A model generated the notes under the pieces. It did no database searches and was not told the DNA's origin. It was given only the letters and a program-made list of their open reading frames with translations. DNA of 64,000 bases, taken from Undaria pinnatifida. Taxonomy: Eukaryota; Sar; Phaeophyceae; Laminariales; Alariaceae. The translations under genes were made by a program, and so were the position numbers. Every line of letters starts with the position of its first letter. Position 1 is the first letter of the stretch. Location of the stretch: assembly GCA_012845835.1 (NCBI GenBank), contig JABAKD010000026.1:15877761-15941760 (forward strand), in the 5' to 3' direction. Below are positions 1,196 to 61,887 of this stretch, piece by piece.

Positions 1196-1262
1196 GTACA
1201 ACTTCCGCACGTCGTCTATAGAGGACCCTCCGCCCTGGTCCTCCAGCAACACCAACTCCTAG
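1196..1262 (+). pseudogene. Decayed copy 1 of the CIA30 exon (5' half)
   Basis: A pyrimidine-rich stretch ending in CACAG is followed by a sequence translating to YNFRTSSIEDPPPWSS, nearly the start of the real exon at 3298 (YNFRTSSVKDPPPFSS). Homology fades after about 65 bp, a TAG follows and no donor is present, so it is an exon remnant and not an alternative exon. Confidence 0.75.
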
Positions 1263-1426
1263 CATTAACTCCTAACACTAGCCGCATTAATCACGGTGCG
1301 GAAATGTATCGTACCACGACCACTTGCAGCAGCCTAGCAAGAAACCACATAATGCAAGATAGTGGCATGCTACGGACAAGAACCTGTTTGACGCGTTTTT
1401 GGCGCGGTTTTTTTTTCTGGACACAG

Positions 1427-2680: not shown

Positions 2681-3297
2681 ACGATACTTGGCCATGTCGA
2701 GGAGCGAGCGAGCCGCCATCCACCACCCACCCATCACCCACCATTCACCCACGGACCTACCCAGTACTGCAGTACAGCAATGCAGCAGTACGTAAAGCAA
2801 TACACCTGTCAGGCGAGCAGCAGCCGATTTGTTGGTTACAATGCTCTCGGGCTGGGCGGGATTTGCAATTGTTTACTATTCCCGCCACGCCGGGGGCCAA
2901 GCGAGCCGTCCCCGTGAGGGCGATTTCCACGCTCCCCCTTCGCCGAGGTGGGGCACCGACGCCCCTTCTTTCGCCGGCATGTCGTAGTGCTGCTGTGCGG
3001 ATGGGACGTGGCGGCACCGCGAGGCCGCCTGAAGCCGAGTGGGGCTCGGGAGTCGCCGCTTTTTGGGGGGGGGGGGTTTAACCAAGATATTTCAAAGATC
3101 CAAAAAAACGTCACGACCACCTTAGCGTATTATATAATAAGGATAGCCGCAATGATCGCAGGCAGTGCGGTAATGTATCGAACCACGACCACGAGCCGTG
3201 CTGTAGTAACCTAATCATTGAATGCCCTGATACCGGCCTCTAGTCATAGTTAACACCCTCTGTCTCGATCTTTTTAACGTGTTTGTTTTCTGGACAG

Positions 3298-3454
3298 GTA
3301 TAACTTCCGCACGTCGTCTGTAAAGGACCCTCCGCCCTTCTCGTCCAACAGCATCAATTCCTTGCAACTCACGCTGTCCAAGTTCGAGCTAGACGGCGAG
3401 CTCAACCCAAATTTCTCCGCAGGGCCTTTCGAACTAACCATCTCGTCTATCAAG
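3298..3454 (+). CDS. HCF173: HCF173-like exon: end of CIA30 domain
   Basis: The acceptor is TTTTCTGGACAG before 3298 and the donor is GTGATG at 3455. It enters with one base completing a codon and leaves in phase 0. It encodes 52 residues including DPPPFSSNSINSLQLTLSKF and ELDGELNPNF, the conserved end of CIA30. This is the only full-length version of three tandem copies (1196, 1427, 3298). Confidence 0.85.
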
Positions 3455-4832: not shown

Positions 4833-7800
4833 GCTACTACTACTACTACTACTAGTATTACGGAGATCCATTGTCAACGGGAGTCATTTAGTTTATGGGG
4901 TCATAACTCTGTCAATTATTCGTCGATAACGGTAAACGATAGCTTGGATTGTTCGCATAGGCCTCACGGTCACGGCGCAAAAATAAAGAATAAAAAATAT
5001 GAAGTGCTCGCCGAGATACTGCGAAAGTTATGAGAAATTTCCGGTTAATTTTTCGAAACAATTTCTGGTGATGATGCTATTAATACGGCATGATAAGGCA
5101 TGCTAAGGCATGATAGTCTAAGGCATGATAGACTAAGGCATGATAAGGCATGATAAGGCATGATAAGGCATGATAGACTAAGGCATGATAAGGGGTGATA
5201 AGGCATGATAGACTAGACTAATGCATGATAAGGCATGATACTAAGGCATGATACTAAGGCATGATACTAAGGCATGATTCTAAGGCATGATAGACTAGAC
5301 TAAGGCATGATAAGGCATGATAAGGCATGATAAGGCATGATAAGGCATGATAAGGCATGATGAGGCATGATAAGGCATGATAAGGCATGCTAAGGCATGA
5401 TAAGGCATGATAAGGCACGATGAGGCATGATAAGGCATAATAAGGCATGATACTAAGGCATGATACTAAGGCATTTACCCCTGTTAACAATTGATCTCCG
5501 AAGTACTACCGCCTTAATTTAAGGGATCGATGAATGAAAATTATCGCAAGGGTGGACTACTACTTACTGCATGTACATATCGTGCGTTTCGTTTGAGACG
5601 GGGCCTACGTGACAAATATAATACAGTGATTGCCAACGCAGTAGTTCGGATCTTCACCAATTTTCGTAGACGATTGTCGCGGTCCTCATACCACCAACTG
5701 TTTGAGCTCTTGTTTAGCTCTTCTTATACCTGGTAGCTCTTTTCATAAGCATAGACCAAAAGTGCCCACTTGGTTTTGTCGCGCTGTGCTTGTTTTTTGG
5801 CGTGTTGGCCGTGGTTCAGAGTTTTGAACCACCTCCATAATCAAGCACAATTTGGAAACCAGTCCCGTTGGAACCAGATCAAGAACAAAATATTGCTTGC
5901 ACTGCTGAACTGTATCGTGCCTCGTGTTCACGCTTCCTGCAGCACGGTGCAATTTCAGATCCCAATTTCAATTTTTTGCGATTCTTCCGGACCAGCGCGG
6001 TGCAGTTCATGTCTAATTTCTTTGCTGTTTTTCTTTGGTAAACTTGCGCTGCAGTTTCGATTTCTAGTTTTCAGCTTTTTTTTATATCTTCGCGCTGCAG
6101 TTTCGACTTGTAAAATATTGTTTTTTTCCTTCTATTTTTTCTGTCACGTTTCCGCTGCAGGTTCGCTTTCTAATTTCTTGTATATGCGTTTTTATTTTTG
6201 CGACCTTGTTTGTTTCACAGGCAGTGACACTAAGCGGAGAGGAAGGCCAGACCCCCCGCTTTGTGCACCTCAGCTCGGCAGGAGTTACGAGACCTGGAAG
6301 GCCGGGGCTCGACATCGAGGCTGAGCCTCCGGCGGTGAGAATCGCGGGCAGATCCCGCAGAGCCCCCCCCCTCGCACAATCGAAACCATCCGACGCTGTC
6401 TTTCACACGCTTGAAAGCACGCACAAGGTGCCGAAGTCCGCCCCACATTCGATTATTTTTAGGGCGCAGCTGACCCTTTATGCGAGTCGCAGAATTCCTC
6501 TCGGTGCTTGGCGCTGAGAATGGCGCAAGCAATGTGAGTCTGCCTGGTCGGTGACAGCCCGACGTGCTCAGTCCCGGCCTTGTAGGAATGCGATGGTCTA
6601 TACCATATACCTACTAATACCTACTATTACCTATCGTCGTACGACATTACGGCCATTCATGAAACGAGTACACCGCCCCCCAGGGCCCTTTGCCCCCTTT
6701 GTATAGTGCGTCCGGGCAAATGTTTTGGCGTTTTCCCCAAATGACGTGGGAATTAATTCCGGGTGACTGACGTCCCCCCTGGTCCCAATGAAACACCAAC
6801 CATCGTTCGTTGGAAAGTTCTGTTCCAGGCGAAGGTTTCGATAGGAGCGTTGTTTTTTTTTTTCGCGATGGGCGAGAAAATCACGAATTCGTCCAGATTT
6901 TGTGAGATTTTCCATAGTTTAGTGTAGTCGAGTGTGCTGTCCAATTTTTTTTTTCGACACCGGTTTTAAACCGAAAACCGCCAGGGCGCTCACGGCAACC
7001 CAACCAACTTCTGGATTCGCCTGTTACTTATCGAGAAAAGGGCATAAAGGTCCTCCAGACAGTGCAGACAGTGCAGACAGCGCAGCCAGTGTATAGATGT
7101 TGCCAGTGTATAGTTTTTGGGGAGTATTGGAAAGACGGATAGATCGTGAAAACTCGTCGGAATCGGGCGAATTGGACCTAATCCCGGGACCGTGTTTTTT
7201 TTTGTTTTTGAAGAAAAAAAAATACGCGAGATATCGCCCGCCAAAATTTCCGCTGGTGTACACACCCACACACCACCCGCAACACCACCTGGCGGCGATG
7301 TTGGCTGCTATTTCTTGGTGTGTCTCTTTTGGTGGTGGTAATGATCTAGCTGGTAGCAATGATGTAGCGCATCTGCATGTGATTACGGGGCGACAGCAGT
7401 GTACGATTGCGGAGTGATGTTGTCCTTTTCGGGTCAATTATGTGCCCTTTCGAGATAATTTCGGGGTAGGTTTGCCAAGAAGTGGCCAATCTCGCTTTTT
7501 TTTTTTTTTACACCTGATTCCGATTCCTGTCGACCCCGCGATTTTTGCCAACTTTGTTTCACGTCTCAACTCTCGAAATCGAGCGAGAACAAGTGGGGGT
7601 CACGCCTTGATAAAATTTGCCCCGGCGGATTCGGAGTTAGAAGTTCTGCTAAATATCACACCCACCATGTCGGGACAGACTACTCGGAATCTGTACCGAT
7701 GTCGTTTTTTGTAACAGATAAAAATAAGCAAATACTTCGAAGTATTGACTTCAAAGACTTTAGAGTTTACTGTATTGTCTGATTTGTGTCGTTTGTTATT

Positions 7801-10800
7801 TGTGTCGATTTACTTTTATATATACCTGGTACATACGAAGTAGGTAAAACTAAGCTGTAGTTCCAAAGTAGTAAAGTAGTTTGGAATTTGTTTAGAATCG
7901 TTTTGTTTTTTGCCACGCAGGGCCTGGAAGGATGAGGGCTAGACGAACGGACCCCGTAGCCGTGCCCCCCGACACCCCCCTTCCCCCTAACCCTAACCCG
8001 TCGGAGTTCGAAGTCATGCGATACGTACCCGCCGTTTTGGAGCAGTGCTCGCTAATAGGGTCGGGTTGTTGTATTGCAGTGCGGGTGGGGGGAAAGGGAA
8101 GACGCCTCTGACTACGGCTTGTGGCTTGTCAAGAAGGTCGCTGAGGGTAACACCTCTTACCATGGGTACAGAGTAGTTCAACTGGAAAGTAAAACTGGCG
8201 AGTAAGAAATTATTCGGTTAATGTTGTGCTGCTTGCTGCTGTTGGTTAAAAAATAAACGCACTCATTCGTTGGTTCGGTTGTGCTTAGTTGGAATTGGTG
8301 TGGACGTGTGGAGTTTCTTTTTGCTGTGCGAAGGTAAAGCAAAGGCCTAACCCGCCGAAAAACGTTGGTGGCGTTCTAAAGGGGAGTAACGTTTTTCCTA
8401 CATAAGGGGAGTAATGTTTTTTTCTACATCTGAACAATCATGCTTTGTGTCATCCCTGGTACCTGGCTTATACCTGGTACATCTGACATATGTCATCCTC
8501 GGTGTGGCATTGGTGGTACTTTGCGCAAGCAACTGAGCTTGCACGTAACAGATGAGACCTCACCGCTGTCCCCCCCCAACTGACCTGTGGCCTTGCTGGT
8601 ATGTTTGTTTCTGGTCCCCACCCTTGAAAGGTGCGCATGAACGACATGCTGTCGTACTTGCTCACGTACAAGCTCAAGGGGGAAGACGTGGTGCGCAACA
8701 GTGGTATACCGGCGACGATCATCCGACCCTGCGCTCTCACGGAAGAGCCCGCCGGGGCGTCGATGGTTGTGGCCCAGGGAGACAACATCAAGGGGAAGAT
8801 AAGCAGGTACGTCTGAAGTATGATGCAGCCGTAGTTCCTGCCTGTTTGGTGCAGTACTTGGTACCTTTTAGTGCGCGCCTCCAGTCTAGCGCGGTGAGAT
8901 CGGCTGTCACTGTCACGACCTCGCTCTACAGGGTACCGTGTTTTCACGGAAGAGCCCGCCGGCGACGCCGATCGTGGCCTAGGGGGACAGGATGAAGTGG
9001 AAGACAAGCAGGTACCTGGTATGAATTAGGGGTTGTTCACGGGTCTTAACGCCACCCGCGGATTGAGTCAAAAACTTTTGTAATTCTCACGAGTCGAGTC
9101 TGTTGGGGCCAGGAGGTGTAGGTGTCCTAAATCTCGTGAGTCAGGGTCGGGACAGGAGGTTTTCAAAACTCACGGGTCTGGTCGGGTCGGGTCGGGTCGG
9201 GTCGGGTCGGGTCGGGTCACCCTGTCGCAGCCCGACCTGCGAAAAATGACTCGACCCGTGAAAGTCCGTGGCTTTATGGCTCGTGCTACTAGTAGTGCTA
9301 CTAGTGGTAAGACAGAGGCTACACTTTTTGGCTTTTTGTTGTTTTCCATGATGCGGCTCCAAAAACCTAGTAATAACATTAGTAATAACATTAGTAATAA
9401 CATTAGTAGTAACATTAGTAATAACATTAGTAATAACATTAGTAATAACATTAGTAATAACATTAGTAATAACATTAGTAAATAACATTAGTAAATAACA
9501 TTAGTAAATAACATTAGTGAATAACATTAGTAAAAAATAAGGGTTTGTACTCAAGAACACCGCAGGGAGGTGCGAATCTCCAACGCTGTGCGTACACGCG
9601 TTCCTCTAAGGCAACGGCCGCAGAATGTGGGCGGTGTTGACGATCACCGGACGAGTAGACGTGCTCGGTAAAGAGACAGAAGAATCTCAGGTTGAGATGG
9701 GGACAGTAGGAAGTGTGAGAGGTGTGCGAGGGTGCACCCTCGCACTCCTCTCGGATGAAAGTAAGGGGCAACGAGCTGAGGAAGCGTCTGGGAAGACGTC
9801 TTGAGGTTCCTCGGGATGTTGTACCCTTCCTTGTGGCTCGGAGTGTGAGTGAGAACGACATCGCTCCGAGAGACGATCTTTCTAGGAGAACGTGCGGAAC
9901 GTTCCTGAAGGTTCTAGAATTTGTGTTCAGACGCAAGTAGGCAGGTTGGGTTCAGAGCATTGTGACCCACATTACCCCCCAGTTTTGATGGTGTTAGAGC
10001 GCTCACTCCATCAAAATTACAGAGCAATGGGAACACAGGCTCTGGTAATCCAAACTTCCGAAGACGCTATTTCGAAGAGTCTCCTCAAAATCTTCGAAAG
10101 TATGAACGACGTAGTACCGAAAAGGTTCCGGAAATACTTGTAGTAAACCAGAGTATTGTTCAGGATCGAATAACGGAGGAGTAATGACAATTGTGCTTAG
10201 CCAAACACAGCATTGCTGCGGCCTGCAGGACAAGTGGCTAGCACGGAAAATATACGCAAAGCGTATTGAAAAGCGTCGCGCGAAAGACGTTTTGACGTAT
10301 CCTGAGTGTGCTATGCAACATTGACGCATCATGGCCAGATAAAAATTGATGCGATCGGAAGCACTGACGAACGAAAATTCATGGCGAAATCATAGCAGCC
10401 ATATGAGTAGGCCGATGCTAGGTGACGGCATGTATGTAGCCAGAAGTCAGACGGAAGTTTGTTGCCTTTCTGGAGGTTGAAATGAAACTAAACCTCGCAG
10501 AAAAATGCACCCTGCAACAAACATGCGTCTCATATCCAATCACCCGGGCTTTTAAAAGCATTCCGGTGGAAAAAGACTGGGCGTGGATGCCCGTGGAGCC
10601 AGTAGACAAGAAATGGTGTTTGCTCGTTTATTATGAATTTCCTCTCGACTAGCTCGGATCTTGTCCGACCCCCCTGTGGCTGAAAGCCACTCCGGAAAAA
10701 AAAAAACGAGTAGTCAATTAATCATCTGGGTCTCGTGGAGACTAAGTGCCAACAGGCGACGTAAACGATGCAACACAAAGGCGACTAATAGGCTATTCCA

Positions 10801-13800
10801 CTCGGATTTCTGGCAAGCAAAGCTTCATATTGCTTAGAGTACACAAATTGATACCGGTTCCAAAGGTCGTGCGAGGACTCAAGGGCGCGTAACGACGCGG
10901 GGAGTCAACTGGCGTACGACAGACGCTATTGTACCTCACTAAGAAGTCAATAGAAAAAAAAAAACATACATGATCAGTGGTCATGCTTCAAAAACAAGAT
11001 AACCACAGGCACGCGTGCGCGGTACTTCGCGCGGAGGACAAAAGACAATCGAAAATCAAAGGAAGCCATGAAGGGCTGCCGGCTACAGGAAATACTAAAA
11101 CACGTGGGCGCCGGGCATCGGTTGTTGCAAAACCGACGCGATCAAATTACAAAGAAAAAAAACATATATATGACAACGCGCGTATACATGCCCTACGTGT
11201 TACCTTCGTCGCGATCCGATCTAGAATAGGTTCGCTTCTTCTTCCCGGGAGGGTCGAAAGCCGAAGGATTTTGTGACAGAATTACAGCACGGTAAGATTC
11301 GATCATCTCCTTGCATTGAGGAAGAGTGCTGTAGTGACGCCATACACCACATTGTGGTGGTTGACCTTTAAGTTTGAGGTGGTATTGGAAATTCTCCACC
11401 GACGCTGCACCTACCCCCCGCTTATGACCATCGATCGCTTCGATGACATACGGGCCGATAGTGACGGTGTGCACTGAGCCATCAAGATCAGGGACGGGAA
11501 GGGTGGTTCCGAGAAACATATCATCGAGTGCCTCAAAGTCAGGGGCAGGTGATGACTTAGGTTTGACGGATTGTTTCATCCGACCTAAGTGGACCGTAAC
11601 TTCGGCCGGTTCGTTCGGTTTTGATACACGGTAAATAACAGGGGAGAGCTGAGCTCTGACGGTATACGGGCCATGCCAAGGGCTAACGAGCTTGGGGTTT
11701 GGTCCGTCAGTTTCGTGGTACGGGCGATGCAGTAATACTTTGTCGCCCACTTTAAAACTGGGGAAAGACAATTTTTTCGTTTTCGACGGCTTGCTTATCT
11801 GCTCGTTCTTGTAAATTGCGACGGGCTAACTCGTACGCGAGCTGCAAGTTTTCTACTGTGCGACGTGAGTAGTCGAGTTTATTTTGTGGTGCATCAGTAG
11901 AAGGAACTCCGAGAATGAGTTCGACGGGGAGAGTAGCCGTACGCCCAAACACAAGATAGTGGGGAGTCTCCTCCAAAGTTTTGGAGTATGCCGTGTTGTG
12001 CGCAAGCTGGACAAACGGTAGTAGTTCCGCCCAATTATCGCAAGCCAAGTTACTGTACATGGCAAGCATATTGTGAACGGTGCTGTGGACACGCTCGAGA
12101 ACAGAGTTCCCTTGCGGACGATAAGCGGCGGTACGTGTTTTCTTGTATCCAAAGACAGACTGCAATTCTTTCACGAGTTGGTTTTGAAATTCCTTCCCTT
12201 GATCGGAATGCAGGGTTTCTGGTGGGCCGAACACTGAAAAGACGCGGTCAATAAGATGACGAACCACCACCGCAGCTTCCTTAGACTTGATAGGTATCAG
12301 AATGAGGAAACGCGTGAGGTGATCGATGGCAGACAGGATAAATCGATTACCTTCTGACTTAGATTTGTATTCGACGAGATCCACCGCAACAACTTGAAAC
12401 GGTCTGGTGACCGGTCGGTGCCCGGTAGGCAGCATAGGTGATCGGTGAGACGTTTTGCGGCGTTGACAAGGAAGACAGCTTTTAACATGTTCGGCAACGT
12501 CAGAGTGCATCGTGGGCCACCAATAACGATCTCGAACTTTGTCGAAGGTACCTTTAAAGGCTAGGTGACCACCTGACGAGGGGAGGTCATGGCAAGCGTT
12601 GATTACAAGTGTTCTCAACGATGTCGGCACCACTAGCTGGTCACGAAAGGTGTCCCGCCTACGTAGGTGGGCAGGGACGTAAGACCGGCAAAGCAAACCT
12701 TCGTGGATGAAGAATTTACTCATGCTGGACTTTGATTGCTGGTGTGGGACGCGAGCCTTAGTAGGATTGGCTAGGTAGTCAAAGTACTGACAAAATTCTT
12801 TCCTCTGATGAGCAAGCAACTTCGCAGCATCGACGACGGGGAAGACAGATATGGCACTAGCAAATAATTCGCGATCGCTTTCGACGGGCACTATCTCGTC
12901 TAAGTTGCCAGCGGACAGTTCGTATTCACGAGGGTTGGGGGGATGAAAAGGCTGATCATCGGGGACGTTACGACAGATAGCTGCAAGTTGCGGTTCGGAT
13001 GGAAGTGGTTTTCCATCCACCTCGCTAAAAATACGCGATAGCGTATCCGGTACAACGTTAAGTTTTCCCGGAACGTGTTTGACGGTGAAATCGTAATTTT
13101 GAAGACAAATTGCCCAACGGGTGAGCATATTGGACGTGTCTTGCATGTGGTACAAGTACGTGAGAGCTTGGTGGTCGGTACAACACGTAAAGTGTCGGCC
13201 TCATAGATACGGACGCCAATGGGTCAGAGCCCATACGACAGCAAGGCATTCTTTCATCGTGGGGCTATAGTGGCTTTGGCTACGAGAAAAACGCTTGCTA
13301 TAGTACACGACAATATCCAGCTCTTTGCCATCGGTGCTGCCCTTGGACGGTTGGGCTAGGAAAGCACCTACACCTTGCTCGGAAGCGTCGGTGTGAACAA
13401 CGAAATCTCTCGAAAAATCGGGAAAGTGAAGGACGGGGGCTTCGGATAAAGCATCTTTGAGTTTCTGGAATGCGGCATCTTGTGCCGGACCCCAGGCCTT
13501 TTTAAAACTCGTGCGTTTGATAAAGCTCTTTCGAGTCAGTTCTACAAGCGGTGCTGTAAGGTCAGAATAATCTTTGACAAACCGGCGGACGAAATTCGCC
13601 ATACCCAGAACAGAACGTAAGTCTTTAATGGATTTGGGCGTGGGCAGGTCGTGAATCGCATTGATGCGGTCGGTACTGACGGAAATCCCTTTCGCGGCAA
13701 TGACATGACCGAGATAGTTGACTTCTTTCTGCCCAAATTGAATTTTGGACGGTTTGAGTGTCAGCCTGCCGCATGCAACGCTGCGAACATTTTCTCGAGA

Positions 13801-16800
13801 GAGACGAGGTGGCTTTCGAACGTGTGATTGATACAAATCAAATCGTCCATGTACGAAAGGATACCGGAGTCAGGGCCAAGGTGGCCTAGAGCTAAAGACA
13901 TTACGTGTTGAAACAGCCATGGTGCATTCGCTACTCCAAAAGGCATGCGCTTAAAACAGTACTTGCCTCTCGGTGTCACGAAGGCGGTGCGGTCGACGTG
14001 CCCCTCGGCCACAGGTAGCTGCCAGAACGCACTGAGGATGTCGGCGACCGAAATGTAGAGGGCGTCTCCGACGGCATCCAGGCAGGACTCGAGGTTAGGC
14101 ATGGGCCAGCTCTTGCGAATGATGTGGCGGTTGAGGGTATGGCGGTAATCAACACAGAAACGGGGGCTGCCGTTGCTCTTGGCGACGATAGTACAAGGGC
14201 TACCCCACGGACTTGGCCGTTCCTCAATTATTCCCCATTCTAACATCTCGTTGACACATTTGTCAATTACTTCAGAGGTGTGGGGGTTGGGACGGTATGG
14301 GGGACGATCGACAGGACGGGTGCCTTCCGGCACGGGGAACGTTGCTTCGGCGATTGTACAACGTCCTAATTCAGACATTGACAGAGAGAAAACGGGACGA
14401 TATTTAGCGCATAAGTCAAGGACAGCATCCTTCTGCTCCACGGTAAACGTGGAACTGGCGAATGCTTTAGACAGAGGACCTTCAAGGTCAGACCTGGCGC
14501 GGCGAACATCCTCGTCAGTGACGGGGGTGTTCGCGACGGCGTTGATATTTAATTGGTCAGGGGTGACTACAGACGCTGTGTACAAATTGCCAAGATGCAA
14601 GCCTGGTAAAAGGCAGACACCATCGCCAGATGGGTTACATATTTGTACGACAACAGAGCCATCAGAAGCACTCCACGTAGCTAAAGTACGGGCGACGAGA
14701 ATATTCTTGAAAGGTTCAAGTGTTGTGTCATCGGAAAAATCTTTCTCGGTTACAATGCGAGGTTCGTCAACAACAGTGCAGACTTCTGGCGGTAGACAAT
14801 CAGTGTAAGCAACAGCAAGGCTTTCCCATTCCGGTTTGAGATTAACTCTCTCACACAGAGAGACAGGAATGGCATCAGCATCGTGATGTACAGCGGCCAC
14901 CGACATGTTTTGAGTGTGGCTCGCCGAGGAAGGATTGCTAGTACTGGACGACGGGACGGAGTCACGAATGCGATGAACAGCTGGTATCGTTGAACCAGTA
15001 GACGAAAATGACAAAGTTTGATTTTTCCAATCTAGGCGCGCTCCGAAGTCGGACATGACACTATTATCGAGGAGCATAAGATCGGGGCCCAAAGAGGGGA
15101 CGACTAGCGCAGTCACCGTGCGGGTGAGCTCGCTGAGGGTTAAAGGAAAATCAATAAACCCGACGACATTGATTGGCTCGCCATTTGCAGCGCGGAGCGC
15201 AACAGCGGCTGGGGGGACGGGATTAAGAGGAATACCTCGCAGGGTGGGATGAGACCGTACCCACGCGAGAGAAACAACCGGCACATCGGTAGCCGTGTCC
15301 ACCGTGATGTTATTCACGGGGACGTCGTCGACAGAGCCGGCGATGCGGACTCGTCGAGACGAGAAAGACAAAGAAAAGTCGATGGTTTTGTGCGCCAGCC
15401 TTGAGCTGTACCACACGTGGTCTGAATTATGTTTTATTTCGGGGAAACTTTTCCCTTCCACATCCCGAAAACGTACACCAAAGCGCGCAGGCGCTGTACA
15501 TCTACTTGGACGCATACCTTGACTCGCACTCGGGGACGCGAATACAGTAACTGGGGAATCAGGGACACCATTATCACAACTCAAGCTTCGCTTGCGCGAT
15601 GAACGCTGACTCTTAACCTCCTCTACTTCAGCCTGAGGGGGAGGGACGACACGTAATTCAGACACACTTGCCACACGAAACAGCTTAGTTGCTGCGCCGT
15701 GAGAACGGGCACGGTACCTAGGCACGACATAACTACGATGACGGACGGGGACACGGGGGACGATAAACTCAGGGGCAAAAGCGGCTACCGACGACGTGGA
15801 GAGTTTCCTCTTCACGCCTTTCCTGGCTACACCAGAAGACGACCCTACTGTTTCAGGCGCTACAACAGCAGGGCACCCCTAGTTGTCGTCGTCGTCGTCT
15901 GGGGCAGGGGCTTTCTTGGAGCGCTTACCTCCGCCATTGCCACCGCCGCCGCCCTTGTTGCGCTTGCTGGTTGCGCGCGCCCTGCGTGCGTCACGCTCCT
16001 CGCGTTGCCGCGTCCAGCACCCCGAAGCTCCTACAGCGTTGTCGCTGTCGACGTCCATTGCGCTCGCGGGGGAAGATCCGTCCGCGGTAGCCTCGGCAGC
16101 AGCGCCGTCGCTGGTTGTGGCGGCGCCGTCGCCATCGGGCTCCACGGGGTTATCACCAGCGGCGCCGTTGGTGGTGACCACAACAGTCCCGTCGGCGGGG
16201 GTAGCGGACTGTTGATCCCGGTTGTCGACGTTTTCTCCGTAGCTATCGGACATGGCTGAGGTGAACTCGAGAAAGGCTCAATCCAAAAGACTGCCGTCTG
16301 AACGCCAATAAGGGTTTGTACTCAAGAACACCGCAGGGAGGTGCGAATCTCCAACGCTGTGCGTACACGCGTTCCTCTAAGGCAACGGCCGCAGAATGTG
16401 GGCGGTGTTGACGATCACCGGACGAGTAGACGTGCTCGGTAAAGAGACAGAAGAATCTCAGGTTGAGATGGGGACAGTAGGAAGTGTGAGAGGTGTGCGA
16501 GGGTGCACCCTCGCACTCCTCTCGGATGAAAGTAAGGGGCAACGAGCTGAGGAAGCGTCTGGGAAGACGTCTTGAGGTTCCTCGGGATGTTGTACCCTTC
16601 CTTATGGCTCGGAGTGTGAGTGAGAACGACATCGCTCCGAGAGACGATCTTTCTAGGAGAACGTGCGGAACGTTCCTGAAGGTTCTAGAATTTGTGTTCA
16701 GACGCAAGTAGGCAGGTTGGGTTCAGAGCATTGTGACCCACAAAAACATTAATAAATAACGTTAGTAAATAACATTAGTAATAACATTAGTAATGACATT

Positions 16801-18481: not shown

Positions 18482-18795
18482 ATGGGCTGTGATATTCCGC
18501 TGGAAGCGACGTTCTGTCGTTGGTCGTATAGGATGGCTGATAAATCGCCTCGAACAGGCCCGCCTCATTCAGTGGGATGCGGTATCACTTAGGGCGGGGG
18601 TGACCAATGTGGCCAATCGCCTCAAGCAGATTGCAGGGCCAATCACTCCCGTTTGAGTGGTATGAGATGGCGGATTAATCGCCTTAGGCTAACGCCCTCG
18701 TCAATGGGGTGCACTGTTCTGTGAAGCGCGACACGCTGACGTTGCTCGTACAGGATGGCTGATTAGATTGCCCCAAGGGGTTTCAGCGTGCGCGG
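18410..18795 (+). repeat. Degenerate tandem copies of the terminal exon end
   Basis: The exon piece GGATGGGTGATAAGTCGCCT recurs as GGATGGCTGATAAATCGCCT (18532), GTGGCCAATCGCCT (18609), ATGGCGGATTAATCGCCT (18668) and GGATGGCTGATTAGATTGCC (18753), each followed by a CCCG/CACTC and TTGAATGGG-like segment. Spacing is 60-120 bp. Confidence 0.75.
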
Positions 18796-27955: not shown

Positions 27956-28191
27956 ATGGACCTCCCCATCCAGGTCTCGCCTGTACCTCATGAGGCGACG
28001 ACCATCCAAGACGATTCCTTGACGCCCTTGCTTCTGGGGATGGATGGGAGTGACCTGGACGGGTTCGATTTGGACGACGTTTTTAACCCGGACGCCGCGC
28101 TGGACTTGTGCGACCTGCTGTCTCTCGCTGTAGACGAGCCTGATCCCGCACCAGTCCAGCAGCAGCGGCAGCCCCAGCAGCAGCCCCAGCC

Positions 28192-28236
<45 letters not shown>

Positions 28237-50077: not shown

Positions 50078-50289
50078 CTGCGCAATGAAATGAAAAAAAT
50101 GCTATGGTTGCTTTAAACCAACGCAGCACCATAATCTACTCCATGTACGAAGTATACTCGTAAAGCACTACTGCTGTATTGGTACCGCTTTGCCGGCTTT
50201 CGTTGTTGGTATTGTAGTTGTGGTGGTTGGTGGTGGTGCTAGTGGATGTTGCTGCTGTTGTTGCTCTCACGTAAGCTCGTTGCCATACA

Positions 50290-50471
50290 GCGGGGGGCTC
50301 CCAATAGTGCCGATATATGCCAGCCTTTTGTACCGGTACTATTCAGGGCACCGGCACTAACGGCTATTGGGGATACGGCAAACATACAAATTCCCACTCG
50401 TGCCAAGCGATTTCATCGGCATTATAGAGAGCAGCGGCACCATTCAACCGGCACTATTGGGAGCCCCCCCC
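50290..50471 (+). mobile_element. MITE-like element family B, copy 2
   Basis: Terminal inverted repeats GGGGGGCTCCCAATAGTGCC and GGCACTATTGGGAGCCCCCC are perfect over about 20 bp. The ~180-bp interior has no reading frame and matches the copies at 33740 and 57205. No clear target-site duplication was seen. Confidence 0.85.
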
Positions 50472-51572
50472 TATAATCTACCCCGTGGTGACGAAACGCC
50501 GTAAGGAGCGCGAAAGGCAGGTGGGGAACAAAGGAAGCGAACAAACCAAGGGGTACCAATATCGGGGTTCGAGGGTGGTGGCTCGAAGCTCGAGTTGTTT
50601 CTCGACGGCAGAAACGGCACCTGGAGCTTAGATCCCGGAATGTTTGCTTCTCTATGTGTAGAAGGTGTGCTCTTTCTCGGACAAGTTATCAAGTTTTGAC
50701 GTCAAGAAAGGGCTACAAGTACTCGTACTCAGGTATTTACACTTCGAGGTATCATGTACGAAACTGGTAGCAACTAGTGCTGTATCGGCAGTTACTAAAT
50801 TTTCACAATACGAGGAACCTGGTGCTGTACCTGGAGTAATCATGTATCTGTATTAATAGTGACAGCAGCGCGTGACACCCCATCCTCAGATCCATGCAAA
50901 CTTGGTGCCTGGTACGAGGTGCTGCTCGTTGTATGACACGATAAGCACACTCGGAAAAGGAGTGTATAACATGTGCCAAATATCGAAATAGTGAAGGTGT
51001 TATACAGAACGTGCCCACTCTTGACTCTTTTTGGGACCCAGAGGTATCAACTGTCTGCTCTACCATGATGATGCGAGAAAACGCCCCGGGGCGCTATTTG
51101 TCGCATAAACGAGCAAATTCCAGAGAAACGCCCCCTGCCGAAGCAAAAATGCGACCCCCTCCCCCGGATACACAGTAAACGCCCTCCCCCTATCTTTTTT
51201 GGGGGGAAACGGCCCGGGTCGGAGCTCACGAGTCGTTCGAGTGTGGGAGATGGAGCCATTTCCAACGCAGGCAAAGGGGTGCTTCACATAGGAAACCTAA
51301 AGCCTGGGATGTGGGTAGGTGGACTCACTTGTTGAGCGCAACAACAGCAAGAAAGACAAAGTCACACGCGGACAGAGAATTAAACATGATTCATTAATAG
51401 ACGATCTGCCTTCAATAGAAGATAAAAATATAGAGGCCAGGTGGGTGTTACATAGTCACCCAGACGTGTTTTCTGTACCAGTATGATATGATGAGGATTT
51501 ATCACCCAGCCACTCGAACCAGCACAGTCCTATTAATATTAATAGCATGTATTTGGGGTGTGGCGTATATAA

Positions 51573-54295: not shown

Positions 54296-54745
54296 GGTCT
54301 AGTACAGTAGTAGTTCGCAGGGTGCACGGTTAGGGTTAGCGTTGCAGCCGCTACCAACGTCGCCAGCGCCACCGTAACCCCTCGTCGTATCATACTTTTC
54401 TCCGTCACCCGCCATCGCAACTCCTGAAATCGTTTACGCGGAGTGGGTGCATTCGTAGAACCAGCAACGGCCTTCCAAGAAGTGTAGTATTATCCAGTAC
54501 GTTAAGGTTAGGGTTATGTTTGCAGAATGCTGCTCTTTTGGCACTTGCAGCAGCTCCCACTCAGCGTCGCCAGCCGCACCTTAACCCGTCCTCGTGCTCA
54601 TGTCCTTCATCCGCCATCTATACTCTTGGGATCGTATTCATAGCTTTACGCGGAGTGAGCGCATTCGTACCACCAGCATCGACTTTCCAAGTAGCATTGC
54701 GCAGCAGTACACCCCCAAGTCTGCGGGTTAGACTGGAGGAACCCT
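54296..54745 (+). pseudogene. Two decayed copies of the plastid-leader exon
   Basis: Copy 1 (about 54296-54476) reads GVGAFVEPATAFQ then a stop; copy 2 (about 54500-54740) reads IYTLGIVFIALRGVSAFVPP and then ASTFQ. Both align with the leader of the intact exon ending at 55108, including the upstream CGCCGC...CCTAACCC and CCATCTAC blocks. Copy 2 ends in TAG/TGA without a donor. Confidence 0.75.
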
Positions 54746-54838
54746 GTTCGTGATCTTTGCAGCAGCAACCACTTAGCGCCGCAAGCCCTAACCCTAACCC
54801 ATCCTCATGTACACCCATCTCCCATCTACCGTCTCTGC

Positions 54839-55108
54839 TTGTACGTCTCTATTCTTTGGATCGCAGCTTTAAGCGGGGTGGGTGCATTCGTAGCGCCAGC
54901 GTCGACCTTCCAAAAGCTGGAGTTCCCCTCCGGCGGCCAGGCGTGCTCTTCGTCGACGGGGGGGATTGAACGGCGTTTGGGCACCAGGCCTGATCTTGCC
55001 AAGACTAATGTTGGTACGAGCGGTGCGAAGCGGGGGAGGAGGTGCCAGCAGCAGCAACAGCATGCGCTAAAGGCGCAGATGACGGACGAGGAGATGGCTA
55101 TCGACCAG
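54839..55108 (+). CDS. Exon 1: plastid leader
   Basis: Hydrophobic [20 protein letters not shown] is followed by a Ser/Gly/Arg-rich transit-peptide-like region and TDEEMAIDQ; donor GTAAGA at 55109, phase 0. It is the intact one of three tandem copies. Confidence 0.78.
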
Positions 55109-58100
55109 GTAAGAATAAACATCTATACCCTGTAGCTGTTCCCTTTGCGTTTTGGTACTGCTGCGGTACGCGGGGCACCCACGACTTTAGAAATTATTTA
55201 TTGCTCGATGGTGATGATTTTTAAGCTTTGTTGTGTTCACGAGCTAATTCCAGGTAATTGAGCCATGATCTATTGTTAGAACATTTCAATAATCAGCTGT
55301 TGCTAGGAGATCGCGCAAAAGAATACCGGGTATTGCAACTGCCGTTAATGTTGTGTGCGTGGTTGGTTGGCGACGGTGGACGTACCATCCAGCTTCAGCG
55401 ATCTCTAAAATGGTCCCTATCTTTTGGCGTGGTGGACACTTGAAACTCATATTCGCTCGTGACATGGATTCTTTTGTTCCTCTCATTTATGGCGCGCTAT
55501 CATATCGTACATATGTGTTGTCTTTCTATGTACCCAAGTATCAAAGAGATACATGGATATATTCGAGTTCCGGGATTACCAACCACGAAACTGATGTACA
55601 GGTAATATACACATGACAGGTAGTACTTACCTGGTGCATTTTAGCACAGCCGTCTACGAATACTGTGTCCTTGTGTCCTCTCGTTGTACTATCGTGCTGC
55701 CTTGTCGCTTGCCTGCATTAGGTTAGAGGGAGATACCTAAGGTGGCAATTTTTCGCTAACCTCGTTTTAAATGGAGCGTTTCACGCTCGATGTGTCTGAT
55801 GACCCTTCTGGCGCTCGTCTGCATGATCATCTTGACGGCTGCAGTAGCTGACTCAAGTACCCCAGCATGCCGTTCCTTCTAACGAGTCTAACGAACAGTG
55901 CTTGGACCTCCATGTTAATGGTCTCATCCCCGCCCTTCCTGGCGCATGTCTGCATCTGCATGATGTGTTGATCTGCATCTTGTCTGCATGTGCGTCTTGT
56001 ACAAATAATCTGCATCTTGTCTACCTGTGCGTCAACCGAGGGTGCATGTGCATGTTATGTTCACTCATAATCTTCTTGTCTGCACGTCCACCATGTCTGC
56101 ATGTTCATCATCTCCGACGCTGAATGGTGAAGGCTCTGATCCAACGGGTAGCGCAGGAGGTAGAGAGCGAGTCCGGTGTGGAACTAGAGCAGCTCATCAA
56201 CCCTGCAAAGGTGAGGCGGAACCGACGTCACGTTGTTAGTCTACTTTACGTCCTGTGATTTTGCTAGCATGTTCCTGCGCATGCTGTGGGCGTTGCAGTT
56301 GCAGCATCTTGTTGCTGATTTCTTTGTGTCGTCGCGGATTTCTGCAACGACGGACTCGTTCCAGGGTTCTCACTAGCGGCGGCCTTAACCGCGTCGTTTC
56401 GTGTGCTCAATGCACACGTCGGTCAGATGACCGATACCTACTTGATGATCCAGATTATCAGATTATTTCAGGGAAGATCTGTAAGGGCTAGCTCATGTTC
56501 CCAAACGGAAGCCGTACGATCTGCGTGATCTAGCACTTGTTTCCAGGATTAGATTTGTACTCTTTAACATACAGATCCTGCACAGCATCCCGCAACGGCA
56601 GCTATAGATAGGATCTGCTGTAGATTATCTGGATCGCGTTCTGTTCAATATGTGGTTGTATGCTATGTACCCCGAGAGTATTACGGAGAGTCATTTGAAC
56701 AAGGCTTTGGCGTTAACTCGTTGTTGTCCTGAAGCATCGCCCTGCCAGTGAAATTAACTCCATTAGAACTGCGCCGACTGTTTGGGGCGAGCAAACTGCA
56801 TGAAGCGGTGTTGTTGGGATATATTTTTTCAATTCTAGAAGGGCTAACGTATCATTGGCGCTGACCCAAACGCCATGCGATTGCTAGTGCTTACACCACA
56901 AGTATTTACCTCACTCTTATGTACGACTACAGACACCTACGAGGTATGACCACTGTTCTTTGTATCTGTCCTCGAGGATATGGGTAAAACTGAAGCTCAA
57001 GCTCACCACATTTCCCCATATGTGTCTTGCTGGAAATGCCGGCGCTGCCGTGGTGGCGGCCTCGTTGTCCCATGATGGTGGTGATAATTGTGGTCAGGTA
57101 ATCAACCTCGAGCGGGATTTGGTGAAGCTGCGGGCGGCTTTGGAGAACGACCGGGGAAGCGGGCGAGATGCCATCGAAAAGGTGACCACTAGTGACCACT
57201 ACAGTCAAGGGTTCTCAATAGTGCCGGTATGTGCTAGCCCAATATACCGGCACTATTGAGAGCACCAGCACTATTGGAAATAAGGTTTTTATTAAGAGAG
57301 TTTCAGCCGTGCCAGGCGATTACATCGGCACTACAGAGAGCAATGGCACTATTACACCGGCACTATTGAGAGTCCCCCAGTGTACCGTCAAGCGTATGGC
57401 CTATACACGATACACTGCAGTAGCTACGGTCGAGACCAGTTGGTGTGTTTGAAGACGCTTGCTACGATAGTCGGTTTGCACCTTTTTCGCCAGAACATTT
57501 CAGACTCACGGAGCTCCTCGGCTAGACTAAACAGCTACCGAATACCGTTGGAATACAATTTGTGGTTTGCAATAGTATTCGTCGTGCACCTATTAATAGT
57601 ACTTAATACCTGGTGGTAGTACCCAACAATACCTCGTAGTACCTAGCAGTACCTATAGTACCTAATAGTACCTAACAGTACCTAACAGTACCTAGTAGTA
57701 CCTGGTAGTATCTAGCAGTACCTGGTAGTACCTGATAGTACTTAACAGTGCCTAATAAAGCCGACTAACTATTACCTAATACCTGGTAGTATGTAAGATC
57801 ATGATATCGAGTATCAGGTTTCGCTAGCATGCCCTTTCCTATTAATAATGAGGTTTTGGGTGCACTCCTATACTAATGAGGTTTTAATGAGATTTCTATG
57901 AGGTTTCAATGAGGTTTTAGTGGGGTTTCAATGAGGTTTTAATGAAGAGAGCTCCTCGAATGAAGAGTGTGCCATGAATTGAATTGAGGTGCACGACTAT
58001 CGTTGCATGGACTGAGGCTGATAATACAGTAATACAGTAATACAGTGTTGATCGTGCTCAGCCGGAGACACAGCAAGCGCACGGCAGTGGGCGGGTTAAA

Positions 58101-61100
58101 ATACGCAATAGGTCGTACACTAGCTACGGACTCGTTGGGCTGGGCGGTGTTGTCTGCCAGGTTACTTGCGTGGTATTAATAGCAGACTTTTTTTCTCTTG
58201 TTTTCAAAAATGTTTTTAATGATTATTTGCTCGTAAGAACGTCTGCGTTCCCCCTTTTCAACTTGCGACACCCCAACACCGTTTCAACTTGCGACACCCC
58301 AACACCGTCCGGAAGGGGCAGCTTGTTTCTATCAACATTTCTTGTATTGCTGGGTTTGATAGGATGTATCGTGTGACCCGTCTCAGCGAACTTGGGGTTA
58401 TTTCCGCAGCCAAACCACCTAAAAGTGTACCCCGTCCAGTGCTTCGCGGGCTGGTTTGTGGAGACGTGTCGCTTTGCCATGGGTGCACTTCATAAATGGA
58501 TAAACCATTGGGGGGGTCGTGTCCAGGTTCCCGCGTTCCGCCGACTAAACCTCGCCGTCCGGCTGATTGGTCCGTCCGACTAAGGCTGTGGCCGCGTGCT
58601 ACGGCGGGGGCAGTAACGTTTGGCCAGTACTTGTGTGACTGCTAACAGGAGGTTGCGACGTGACCTTTGTTTGGTTTCTCACGTATCTTGTTGTCCACCT
58701 TGTTTTTGCCACTCGCACACCAGGTGCCTGGTATATGTTAACAGGAGATTGCCGCGCGTTTTTTTTTCCTTTCTCACGTACCATGGTATGTGCCTTGCTT
58801 GTGCTACTCGTATTGTACGTTGGCAGGAGATTAGCAAGAAGGAGTCTACCCTGGCGATTGAAAAGCGAACGTACATGAAGGGCTGGCTGAAGAAGATTTT
58901 TGTGGGGCAAGCGGTGATTACCACTGTTCTCGGAGGGCTCATGGTGAGTTATCATCGTTGTTGCCGCTTCGGGACAGAGCTCATTGATTGGTTATTAGTT
59001 CTGCCGTGCAACGCTTGGCAGTTTCTAGTACCTTGCTGCGCGAGCTCCAACTGCTTGCAGTATTTATGTTAGTGATTTGAAGTGGTATTAAATGACGTTT
59101 AATGGTGTTTGATGATATTTACGAGTGATATTTAGTTACCAGGTGTACTCTCATGTATTTTATTTCTATTTAATGATATTTAACTAATCATCACTCGCTT
59201 CTACGGGTGGCGGCTGTTTTCAGGCGTACGACGCAGTTCCGTTCTTCCCGGACGTGGACCTTTCCATCCGAGTCCTGGGGTTTTGGTTCGTGTGGCTTTT
59301 CACGGTGCCCTCCCTTCGGGCGCGCAAACCGGGAGAGGCAGAGAAGGTGGCTTTGAACATCGCCTTCATCGCTACCCCGCTCGTCAGCTTCGCGGCGCCG
59401 TTCGTGACCAAGGTAACACGAATGGTACGGTAGGGCTAACACCTACCTGGTACCTTTTCCAAGGTTCCTACATTAGCAAGCTCTTCACTCCACCCAAAAA
59501 CCGACTTTGAGATAATATGAAAATGCAGCGTGGTGAATAACGCCGTGGTGATGCCCTTCGACACCAAGCTTCGAGAAGTGCTACGGTACTGGTTTACACG
59601 TATAGTTTCTGTGGGTCTTTTCTCGCTTAAGGGGCTCAATATGTCAGCCACGCCGCTGAATTTGAGAAAATGTGAAAATGCAACCCGATAACCAGCCCTA
59701 TGGGCATGTCCTTCGTGACCAAGGTTTCACGAATACTACGGTAGGGATAATAGCTACCAGGTACGAGGTAAGTACCAGGTATGTTTCTCACTTTTGTAGC
59801 TCTACATAACCCCCAAACCATTATCTCGAGAAATATCTATGCTCAACTTTTTAGAACTAAAACGAATGCTCCAGAGAAGGTGGCGCTGCACATCGCCTTT
59901 CTCGCCACCTCCTTCGTTAGTTTCGATGCGCCCTTCGTCACTAAGGTAAGACGAATGCGACGTATCAGGTTGATAGTGAAAACCCGGGCCTATCTGCGGT
60001 ATCGGGGTTATTTCCACATCCTTAATATGTACCAGGTATGTATGTATGTATGTATGTATGTATGTATGTATGTATGTATGTATGTATGTATGTATGTATG
60101 TATGTATGTATGTATAGTAGTTGTACGCAGTTTTTACTGGCCCCTCACTTGAACAGGTCTACCTCTCACCAAGGTGACCATGGCCAACCCAACGCAAGCC
60201 CACGCAACGCAAGGCAACCGATGACTTGGTACTTTTGGCGTGAATCGAGCGTCCATTCTATGTAGGTCGCTTCATGCCGGTATAAAATACCGAGATGCCA
60301 ATATCTGCTTTTCCATGCCGCCTTTTTTCGAATATCGCAATGTCAAAAAAATATTGACCCGTGACCAAACATCGGTGGTGTTGCTTGGTCTCACGGAATG
60401 GATGCACCCGCACGCAGGATCCGGTTTCCATCTACTGGGCTAACATCGCGGTGTTGACAGCATGCTACGGATACGGGTTCACCATTGGAAAACCTGACGG
60501 AGATACGGCGGCGGATCAAAATCAACCCAAATGGCTCAAATTCATTTACAAGGTAGGCTGGCCTTCAATGGTCCAAGTGCACTTCCAACGTAGGCTCCGC
60601 AATGACTCAAGCTTATTTACAAGGTAGGCTGGCCTCCAATGGCCCAAGCTCATGTACCAAGTAGGCTGGCCTCCAATGGTTCAAATTTATTTACTACTAT
60701 AGACTGGCCTCCAATGGCAGTTCATTGTATGGTAAATTGCTCTCTGTGGACGTGGTCATCCGTTTTGGCTGGCCATGGCAGCACCTGTTTCGGAAACCGA
60801 GTTAAAGCGACACACGGCACATACTTTGAAGTGTGGTGAGAGTAAAAATGGCGACATAACGGAAGCATAAGCGTGTTTTGTCGCGTTTCGAGGTGATTTT
60901 CGTCAACTTGCAGCCCTCTGCGCTTTAACCCCCCCCCAACACGCCGCTTCTTTGCTTCTTGACGATAACACAGCGTGAGACGCACAGTCAAAGCCAACAT
61001 CTAGACGCTGCTGCTTACGCCGTTCGTTCGCGGAGTAGTTTCTATTTATGTAACCGTCTAGGCCGTTGCTCCTCGCTTTGCCGCTATTACCGCCCCCCGC

Positions 61101-61887
61101 ATTCGTGTCTTAATGATGACACATCCTGAGGCGTGCAGCCAAGCCATCATCTGCAGTTATCGCGGTTTCTTTGCGAACTCGTCCCTGTTTTGTCACCGTC
61201 TTCGACGTTGCTCTTGGCGTCGCAACAATCCCCGGACAAACACGCAGTCGTAGCCAACATGGAGACGCTCCTATAACATGAACGCGTTTTTTTTTAAACT
61301 CGCTGTTGTTATTGTTGCACTCTTGGTTGTTGCCGCAAAATTTCCTCTATCACCGCACGCCTTCGCGTCCTGATAAAAACATGCGTTGAGGCGTGCAGTC
61401 GGAAAAAGCATCTGCTGCCCACGCGGGTCCTTTGCGACCTCGTCCCGCCCCTGTTTTTGCTACTGTTCTAACTGTTGCTCCTCGCTTAGCCACAATCCCC
61501 GGACATGCTCGGAGTCAAATCCGGCATCGAAACGCTCCTACTTATAGTAACGCGGCGTATTCGCCAACTCGCTCGTGTTCCTGTTGACGTCTTGGCCGTT
61601 GCTCCTCGCGTTTCCTCTATCACCGCAGCCCGCCTTCGTGTCGTAATGATAGTACATATTCCGGCATGCAGTCGAAGCCAACAACTCGACGCAGCTGCTA
61701 ACGCGGTTTCTTCGCGAACTCGCCCCTGTTCTTGTCACCCGCTTGGTTGTTGCTCCTCGCTTGCCCGTTGCTTCTCGCTTCTCTTGTTGCCACTTGGCCA
61801 CAGTCCCTGGACTTCGGGTCAGGAAAGGAGCGAGGCGCGAGGGCCCCCGCGAGAAGGGTCGACGACGACGAAGACGAGGAAGAGTAG
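54839..61887 (+). CDS. Plastid-targeted multi-pass membrane protein (7 exons), function unknown
   Basis: Exons ...-55108, 56133-56210, 57098-57181, 58827-58943, 59224-59412, 60418-60552 and 61804-61887 all begin and end in phase 0 and give about 318 codons. The first exon encodes a hydrophobic leader then [10 protein letters not shown], close to the ASAFAP signal/transit cleavage motif of heterokont plastid precursors. A coiled, charged stretch follows ([15 protein letters not shown]), then probably four transmembrane segments: [49 protein letters not shown], and [16 protein letters not shown]; the tail is acidic (VDDDEDEEE). It looks conserved, but I do not recognise the family. No in-frame ATG was found near the leader; the frame is open upstream and 54839 is only a nominal start. 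The start may lie in an unseen exon. Confidence 0.78.
56133..56210 (+). CDS. Exon 2
   Basis: Acceptor GAATGGTGAAG, donor GTGAGG, 26 codons: [20 protein letters not shown] plus LINPAK. The intron upstream carries CTGCATCTTGTCTGCATG repeats (55950-56100). Confidence 0.8.
57098..57181 (+). CDS. Exon 3
   Basis: Acceptor TTGTGGTCAG, donor GTGACC, 28 codons ([20 protein letters not shown]...). The donor region GTGACCACTA is itself duplicated head to tail (57182-57201), and a MITE-like copy follows at once. Confidence 0.82.
57205..57376 (+). mobile_element. MITE-like element family B, copy 3
   Basis: Termini TCTCAATAGTGCCGGT and ACCGGCACTATTGAGA form an inverted repeat. The interior shares CAGGCGATTACATCGGCACT and AGAGAGCA with the copy at 50290. 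It lies in intron 3 of the plastid protein gene. Confidence 0.8.
57630..57790. repeat. Minisatellite AGTACCTAGT (10 bp)
   Basis: About 14 units of AGTACCTARY; some read AGTACCTGGT and so generate TACCTGGTA words. An ATGAGGTTTT array follows (57850-57950). Confidence 0.9.
58630..58826 (+). repeat. Three tandem copies of the exon 4 acceptor
   Basis: CTAACAGGAGGTTGCG (58640), GTTAACAGGAGATTGCC (58738) and the real TTGGCAGGAGATTAGC (58821) are each preceded by GTTTTTTTTCCTTTCTCACGTACC-like intron sequence. The unit is about 90-100 bp and contains the splice acceptor. Confidence 0.8.
58827..58943 (+). CDS. Exon 4: first transmembrane segment
   Basis: Acceptor TTGGCAG, donor GTGAGT, 39 codons: a basic helix ([20 protein letters not shown]) then [15 protein letters not shown]. 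Confidence 0.88.
59224..59412 (+). CDS. Exon 5: transmembrane segments 2 and 3
   Basis: Acceptor GCTGTTTTCAG, donor GTAACA, 63 codons. Segments [17 protein letters not shown] and [19 protein letters not shown] are separated by a charged loop ([10 protein letters not shown]). Confidence 0.9.
59517..59965 (+). pseudogene. Three decayed copies of the exon 5 end plus donor
   Basis: Copy at 59866-59946 still reads [26 protein letters not shown] with an intact GTAAGA donor, but no acceptor restores phase 0. The copy at 59660-59760 keeps TTCGTGACCAAGG plus the intron sequence CACGAATACTACGGTAGGG. The copy at 59517-59600 keeps only CCCTTCGACACCAAGCTTCG and CTACGGTA. Confidence 0.85.
60034..60113. 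repeat. GTAT tetranucleotide array
   Basis: Twenty perfect GTAT units directly after a TACCAGGTA word. Confidence 0.98.
60418..60552 (+). CDS. Exon 6: fourth transmembrane segment
   Basis: Acceptor CCGCACGCAG, donor GTAGGC, 45 codons: [20 protein letters not shown], then [20 protein letters not shown] and YK. Confidence 0.88.
60535..60725 (+). repeat. Four tandem copies of the exon 6 end plus donor
   Basis: TTTACAAGGTAGGCTGGCCT (the real junction, 60544) recurs at 60619 almost unchanged, at 60655 as TACCAAGTAGGCTGGCCTCC and at 60695 as TACTATAGACTGGCCTCC, each followed by CCAATGG. The copies decay progressively to the right. Confidence 0.9.
60950..61803 (+). repeat. Degenerate ~170-bp tandem repeats up to the exon 7 acceptor
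   Basis: About five units share TTCGTGTCNTAATGATNACA, GGCGTGCAGNC.AAGCCAAC, GCTGCTAACGCGGTTTCTT and CTTGGNCGTTGCTCCTCGC. Several contain ACCGCA or GCCACAATCCC(C/T)GGAC, like the true acceptor GGCCACAGTCCCTGGAC at 61797. Confidence 0.8.
61804..61887 (+). CDS. Exon 7: acidic C-terminal tail
   Basis: Acceptor CTTGGCCACAG, 27 codons ([18 protein letters not shown] then VDDDEDEEE) to TAG at 61885-61887, phase 0. Short, so it rests on phase, the acceptor and a clean stop. Confidence 0.72.
   Translation, partial: SLDFGSGKERGARAPARRVDDDEDEEE

Follow-up and report, generated by a model that had tools for sequence, protein, structure and literature searches.

Decaying direct copies of exon edges in a 64-kb Undaria pinnatifida locus occur at about the rate of copies of other intron sequence

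Genes, splice junctions and other features of the window

The window analysed here is a 64-kb stretch (64,000 nucleotides) of the Undaria pinnatifida genome. The exons of four genes were rebuilt within it, and protein relatives guided three of the four reconstructions.

Gene 1, plus strand: exons 3298-3454, 6221-6334, 8631-8806, 17586-17723, and 18385 to the stop codon at 18479-18481; an NAD(P)-binding/CIA30-type protein, placed by relatives including tblastn of P0122/P0123.
Gene 2, plus strand: donor 29074 and acceptor 32382; bZIP-like, read from the sequence, with a weak Pfam match (E = 0.079).
Gene 3, minus strand: nine exons from 52976 to 38179; NOSIP, placed by protein relatives.
NOSIP exon, minus strand: 46139-46035, placed with the Undaria protein P0245.
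Gene 4, plus strand: exons up to 55108, then 56133-56210, 57098-57181, 58827-58943, 59224-59412, 60418-60552 and 61804-61887; placed by relatives.

The best relatives of two of the gene models are brown algal: a Laminaria digitata protein aligns to 74% of the query at 93% identity, and a Sphacelaria protein to 87% at 77%. Relatives of gene 4 occur in diatoms as well as brown algae, and those shown have no listed Pfam domain. Protein P0245, whose label Undpi1 we read as Undaria pinnatifida, spans all but one of the nine NOSIP exons; five of the alignment rows show 100% identity and the other three differ outside the exon only. By its fit to relatives, the first NOSIP intron appears to use a GC donor at 52878 (AAG/GCAAGG), where a spliced aligner restricted to GT put the donor elsewhere. 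For three genes this aligner retrieved the majority of the known exons, but it also produced spurious micro-exons and shortened the first NOSIP exon, and it was excluded from the counts. In the bZIP-like gene (27900-33138), a putative membrane segment was judged by eye to follow the zipper, an arrangement that we take to recall membrane-tethered bZIP factors, with the weak Pfam match borne in mind.

The junction set comprises 40 splice junctions, drawn from 19 introns (median length 1452 bp) and two further acceptors. Its least certain members are the gene 2 pair and the acceptor at the start of gene 4.

Several other features were noted along the way. An LTR retrotransposon, Ty3-like by its open frames, occupies 9536-16742 in a gene 1 intron; its 436-bp terminal repeats are 99.8% identical, and thus the insertion is probably recent. 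A fold-back at 39108-39900, in the last NOSIP intron, is an inverted repeat of itself at 81%. Part of another NOSIP intron (45287-45459) belongs to a dispersed repeat that recurs at least 39 times elsewhere in the genome, in copies about 155-200 bp long and 87-94% identical. Another dispersed family, of about 190 bp, occurs in both orientations at 33744-33930, 50276-50472 and 57189-57378, and one member begins 8 bp past a gene 4 donor. Rfam and tRNA scans gave no matches.

Short words are also over-represented. The 9-mer TACCTGGTA (TACCAGGTA on the other strand) has 35 sites in the window against 0.5 expected, for example at 3909, 8471, 23195, 42613, 59444 and 63133, and 41 against 1.1 expected in 200 kb of other genome stretches. 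It has only 45 one-mismatch sites, its flanks are unrelated, and it is absent from the Ty3-like element; no repeat family surrounds this short, palindrome-like word, whose sequence is sharply maintained. The word CTATTAATAG occurs 6 times against 0.04 expected and CTATTAATA 32 times, on both strands, with 21 occurrences in 200 kb elsewhere against 0.8 expected; sites of the two include 17470, 19506, 27361, 40486, 57590 and 63302.

Copies of exon edges in the neighbouring introns

Each junction was given the score of its best direct alignment to any target no more than 2.5 kb away (match +1, mismatch -1, gap -2), provided that the alignment ran through the junction and earned 6 points or more on either side of it. 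At a score of at least 30, a diverged direct copy spans 8 of the 40 junctions (20.0%; 95% interval 9-36%). These are acceptor 3297 and donor 8806 of gene 1, acceptor 45095 and donors 44979 and 40666 of NOSIP, and acceptor 54866 and donors 59412 and 60552 of gene 4; minus-strand donors are sometimes numbered one base lower (44979 is also 44978). At all eight the best copies lie on the intron side, and two of the junctions have weaker matches elsewhere as well. The copies and related repeat units are as follows.

1137-1264, plus: first decayed copy, in the upstream intron, of the start of a gene 1 exon and its acceptor; matches 3246-3366 at 76.6%, AG kept.
1251-1510, plus: second decayed copy of this acceptor unit; 1251-1493 matches 3116-3367 at 67.6% and 1392-1510 matches 1160-1281, AG kept.
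3298-3454, plus: gene 1 exon whose acceptor 3297 is the working copy (tblastn of P0122/P0123); the score is 63 for the copy at 1195 and 56 for that at 1426.
8631-8806, plus: gene 1 exon with donor 8806 duplicated downstream (relatives; score 47).
8944-9038, plus: decayed copy of donor 8806, with a 2-nt deletion in its exon part (8944-9011), GT kept.
18470-18772, plus: repeats of the end of the last gene 1 coding exon and of post-stop sequence, no splice site (alignment).
40274-40342, minus: decayed copy of part of NOSIP exon 40666-40736, with an in-frame stop and the donor GT changed to GC (40285); acceptor unrecognisable at threshold.
40666-40736, minus: NOSIP exon with its 3' part and donor duplicated (score 41; P0245).
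44923-44987, minus: exact 32-bp tandem duplication across NOSIP donor 44979 (score 33).
44979-45095, minus: NOSIP exon duplicated at either end, where acceptor 45095 has two upstream copies and the exact 32-bp duplication crosses donor 44979 (P0245 identical; scores 43 and 33).
45495-45815, minus: two decayed copies of the NOSIP acceptor 45095 unit, the far copy having lost its AG (45688).
54335-54923, plus: three copies of the gene 4 start region, targeting-peptide-like by reading (alignments); the exon edge in use is uncertain.
58640-58810, plus: tandem pair in a gene 4 intron, ending before acceptor 58826 (alignment).
59224-59412, plus: gene 4 exon with donor 59412 duplicated twice downstream (relatives; score 53).
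59712-59764, plus: second copy of donor 59412, GT kept.
59872-59962, plus: copy of donor 59412 in which the exon sequence is open over 72 nt, GT kept.
60530-60718, plus: array of copies of gene 4 donor 60552 (score 63), GT lost at 60698.
60933-61767, plus: tandem array in the last gene 4 intron, ending 36 bp before acceptor 61803.

The initial annotation had listed twelve exon boundaries flanked by such copies and had assigned them to all four genes. Eight of the twelve were borne out: the acceptor copies at 1196/1427 (working copy at 3297/3298) and 45437-45715 (NOSIP), the donor copies at 8945 (working donor 8806), 44925 (the exact 32-bp duplication) and 60535, and three places that need qualification. 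Position 59517 itself falls within an intron-internal repeat, the working donor being 59412 and its copies lying at 59723 and 59945. At 54296-54745 the duplication is certain, and the uncertainty concerns which copy supplies the first exon edge; one copy has lost its AG at 54439, and the spliced alignment to Ectocarpus P0003 chose the middle one. At 40268, described as a whole-exon copy, the donor side is duplicated; the DNA alignment begins 14 nt inside the exon and the protein alignment extends a few residues further, an overrun with which a decayed whole exon at 40274-40342 would be compatible.

The other four places contain repeats that do not reach a splice junction in use. Three of these end short of an acceptor: a pyrimidine-rich repeat (5945-6176, for the site given as 5990-6220) stops 44 bp before acceptor 6220; the pair listed at 58630 stops 16 bp before acceptor 58826, which scores 0, with a full-length 62% alignment entering the exon by 6 nt; and the array listed at 60950 yields a weak in-register score of 18. 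The fourth, 18410-18795, had been read as a donor and is instead the last coding exon with its stop codon, about where the Sphacelaria protein P0121 also ends. Nor does the pattern extend to all four genes, given that at score 30 neither of the 2 junctions of the bZIP-like gene is spanned, nor is any of its 360 intron positions, leaving cases in three of the four.

Most of the decoy splice sites are intact, since 11 of the 15 copies retain their AG or GT and 4 lack it. Six pairs of a working exon and its copy show 65 differences in all, 33 of them synonymous, where a neutral copy of a constrained exon predicts 0.425 (P = 0.11); the six pairs are few and not independent, as two share one working exon, and the frameshifted pair 8806/9011, the short pairs at 44978 and 60552 and the other copies are outside this count. 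The pooled differences fit unconstrained decay. One pair of the six, 59412/59945, has 11 of 16 differences synonymous, which is above the neutral expectation (P = 0.03). Constraint on the copies was considered and set aside: a P of 0.0006 for one pair became 0.03 once synonymous-only change in the working exon was allowed for.

Within exons, coverage by copies falls away from the edges. Of the sampled positions, 27/109 are covered in the outermost 15 nt, about the intron rate, then 31/149 (15-30 nt), 31/159 (30-50 nt), 15/103 (50-80 nt) and 0/41 (beyond 80 nt), in a scan of the exons other than those of the bZIP-like gene, the first NOSIP exon and NOSIP exon 46139-46035. This gradient is expected if duplications that preserve the spliced product are tolerated. 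The protein relatives compared carry a single copy of the duplicated exon parts.

Junctions compared with the intron baseline

The local repeats themselves exceed chance. Once low-complexity matches are removed (complexity <=0.8, also removed before orientations were counted), 57 local direct matches in the window reach 28 bits or more, against 0, 0, 2, 1 and 0 in five shuffled versions. Up to 2.5 kb apart, 57 matches are direct and 17 inverted; beyond 2.5 kb, the numbers are 26 and 29. A direct bias confined to short range is what tandem duplication predicts.

Whether splice junctions are singled out by these repeats is a separate matter. As a control, the same score was taken at 3690 intron positions, one per 9 bp, of which 14 inside a NOSIP exon were left out, as were 293 of the remaining 3676 that fall in short-period arrays. 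At score 30, 666 of the 3383 intron positions outside microsatellites are spanned (19.7%), against the 20.0% of junctions. At lower thresholds the intron positions give 904/3383 (26.7%) at score 20 and 1133/3383 (33.5%) at score 16, and the junctions 9/40 (22.5%) and 11/40 (27.5%). With microsatellites kept, 891 of 3676 intron positions are spanned at score 30. Intronic AG and GT sites unused for splicing are spanned in 110 of 486 cases (22.6%) at the same score.

Null models built on 38 junctions agree with this comparison. A circular shift over genic territory yields 5.6 +/- 2.6 expected against 8 observed (P = 0.24), the eight of this set including 43928 instead of 44978, and the three models together give P values of 0.24, 0.51 and 0.25. 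Random intron positions lead to an expectation of 7.7 of 38; removal of the junction-linked families lowers the intron rate to 15.8% and the expectation to 6.0, against 8. Copy density at score 30 shows no increase toward junctions within 1.5 kb, remaining at 0.15-0.19 in all distance bins, and it is highest beyond 1.5 kb, at 0.55 (198 positions). This null result rests on 40 junctions, and an enrichment below about 1.8-fold is compatible with the data.

Thus, the first reading saw real repeats at eight of its twelve places, and the intron baseline accounts for where they lie. Its view that the repeats are beyond chance holds for their existence and not for their placement. Its premise, that chance would not place repeats on splice junctions with such regularity, fails against the intron positions of this window. 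Exon edges seem to be swept up in a general duplication habit rather than targeted, because their copies are no commoner here than copies of other pieces of intron.

The surroundings offer further points of comparison. Twenty 10-kb stretches elsewhere in the same genome, picked at round coordinates and not drawn at random, contain 99 direct and 48 inverted local matches, with 349 of 2289 positions spanned at score 30, or 234 of 2174 (10.8%) without one stretch (L032) in which every position is covered by local copies. Given that these stretches are also rich in local copies, local duplication is common genome-wide. In the intergenic stretches of the window, 90 of 1451 positions are spanned (6.2%), and introns and junctions have about three times that rate. 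The window introns, at about 20% spanned, therefore exceed both the genome stretches and the window's own intergenic DNA; we give this excess as an observation rather than a result because the arrays are few and clustered.

Origin of the copies and its implications

We consider the copies to be best explained by frequent local tandem duplication that is tolerated in introns and across single splice sites, and we assign this reading a probability of roughly 78%. In this kelp genome, local tandem duplication would be frequent, with most units measuring tens to a few hundred bp. Duplications wholly within introns would be neutral, and those crossing one splice site nearly so, because the copy that adjoins the remainder of the exon would still yield the same protein. 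The working copy would be the last for an acceptor and the first for a donor, after which the intron copy would decay, and duplications inside exons would be lost. Tolerance of this kind would leave exon edges carrying decayed copies at about the intron rate. The copies, their direct orientation and divergence, the matching rates at junctions and in introns and the lack of copies deep in the sampled exons are observations; the duplication mechanism, its neutrality and the disregard of the copies by the spliceosome are what we infer.

Four observations count against this explanation. Copy-rich introns often include a junction, a coincidence that 40 junctions cannot separate from chance; the approximately threefold coverage of introns and junctions over intergenic stretches goes beyond plain neutrality, although the arrays are few and clustered; one pair of six, 59412/59945, has a synonymous excess; and AG or GT is intact in 11 of 15 copies, so that the majority of decoys survive. 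One proposal of the initial annotation, that duplicates are removed elsewhere and survive in introns, agrees with the contrast between 0 of 41 exon positions deeper than 80 nt and 27 of 109 within 15 nt of an edge. It fits for another reason as well, namely that the identifiable working copy is the one that preserves the protein.

If exon edges were instead preferred targets of duplication, through AG/GT sequence or through splicing itself (for example, by R-loops), introns would lengthen from their edges. Copies at eight junctions in three of four genes, the 6.0 of 38 expected against 8 once junction-linked families are removed, and the excess of introns and edges over the window's intergenic stretches all lend this some weight. 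Nevertheless, we judge it unlikely in view of the matching rates of junctions and intron positions, the three P values, the flat density toward junctions with its maximum beyond 1.5 kb, and the 22.6% of unused AG/GT sites that are spanned. The initial annotation had suggested that introns lengthen by duplication across junctions, and this survives in the general sense that about 20% of intron positions are spanned, without the junctions being singled out. It had also offered duplication across AG/GT junctions as the way in which introns arise. The AG and GT sites within the copies recall this model of Rogers, in which tandem duplication of an AGGT-bearing exon segment creates an intron, and gains of this type have been published (PMC4974935). 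The model implies that the flanks of a new intron repeat each other, yet none of the 19 introns has a repeat between donor and acceptor flanks, with scores of 7-11 where 327 unrelated pairs average 9.2 and reach 18. Given that the copies also include intron sequence and match one intron edge only, intron gain is very improbable here.

That the copies serve as functional alternative or mutually exclusive exons finds its best case in the 59945 copy, with its open 72-nt frame, retained GT and 11 of 16 synonymous differences, and in the gene 4 start copies, which encode a similar motif and of which the spliced alignment to Ectocarpus P0003 took the middle one. We regard this as quite improbable, since an acceptor and a donor never occur together in one copy at threshold, the copy of the NOSIP exon contains a stop, lacks its GT and aligns only from 14 nt inside the exon, the homologous proteins compared hold one copy, and the pooled differences fit neutrality. 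Assembly artefacts could produce the few exact repeats, such as the 32-bp and 62-bp pairs. The 57 local matches are 60-87% identical, which is unlike assembly error, and the published Undaria assembly is described as built from PacBio reads (PMC7058681); an artefactual origin is therefore scarcely credible.

With local tandem duplication as the preferred reading, the copies can be set beside known systems. Gao and Lynch reportedly described, in 2009, internal gene duplication across the exon-intron boundary. The kelp segments likewise cross one intron-exon boundary; unlike those duplications, they have added no new intron or exon in the window, and the protein is unchanged. The available text of a survey of tandem and partial exon duplication covers unannotated intron copies and cites a 2002 study in which about 10% of animal genes had tandem duplicated exons (PMC9013439). 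As in those cases, exon pieces lie in tandem near the parent exon and some are unannotated; by contrast with what that text describes, the kelp copies are partial and diverged, have one splice site each at threshold, and are matched by equally frequent duplication of ordinary intron. Both traits of partial exon duplication are nonetheless found in the window: an edge copy in the adjoining intron, and the decay of that copy together with its absence from the proteins of the relatives compared, with the first edge of gene 4 uncertain.

In a potato RdRp gene, the duplicated segment crosses an intron-exon boundary, according to the part of the report concerned (PMC4974935). Here, as in that case and in Drosophila (PMC2891723), tandem duplication has brought extra AG and GT sites into a gene; in comparison with those accounts, as far as the excerpts extend, the kelp intron flanks are not mutual repeats, and introns have been lengthened rather than created. 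Brown algal ROCO genes undergo exon duplication and shuffling that leads, by the title of the paper, to receptor diversity (PMC11378527). Both are instances of rearranged brown algal exon sequence, although the edge pieces in the kelp decay, unlike what that title announces. Among the titles and abstract openings returned by a literature search on tandem duplication and the introns of kelps or brown algae, none described kelp intron growth by this route.

Splice junctions as hot spots of intron growth are contrary to what is seen in this window, and exon-edge copies need an intron baseline before they are taken as a signal. The duplication habit may bear on the long introns of kelps, whose mean length in Saccharina japonica is given as 1203 bp against 704 bp in Ectocarpus (PMC6507550). 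On a wider view, which we advance tentatively and would not yet favour over its negation, introns of Undaria, and perhaps of kelps at large, may grow largely through local tandem duplications nested within one another, in units of tens to a few hundred bp. About one-fifth of exon edges would then carry a decaying copy of themselves, and decoy splice sites would be a lasting trait of this genome, with gene bodies receiving more of these copies than intergenic DNA does. Because decoys of differing divergence adjoin working sites, the genome suggests a direct measure of how far splicing tolerates such decoys.
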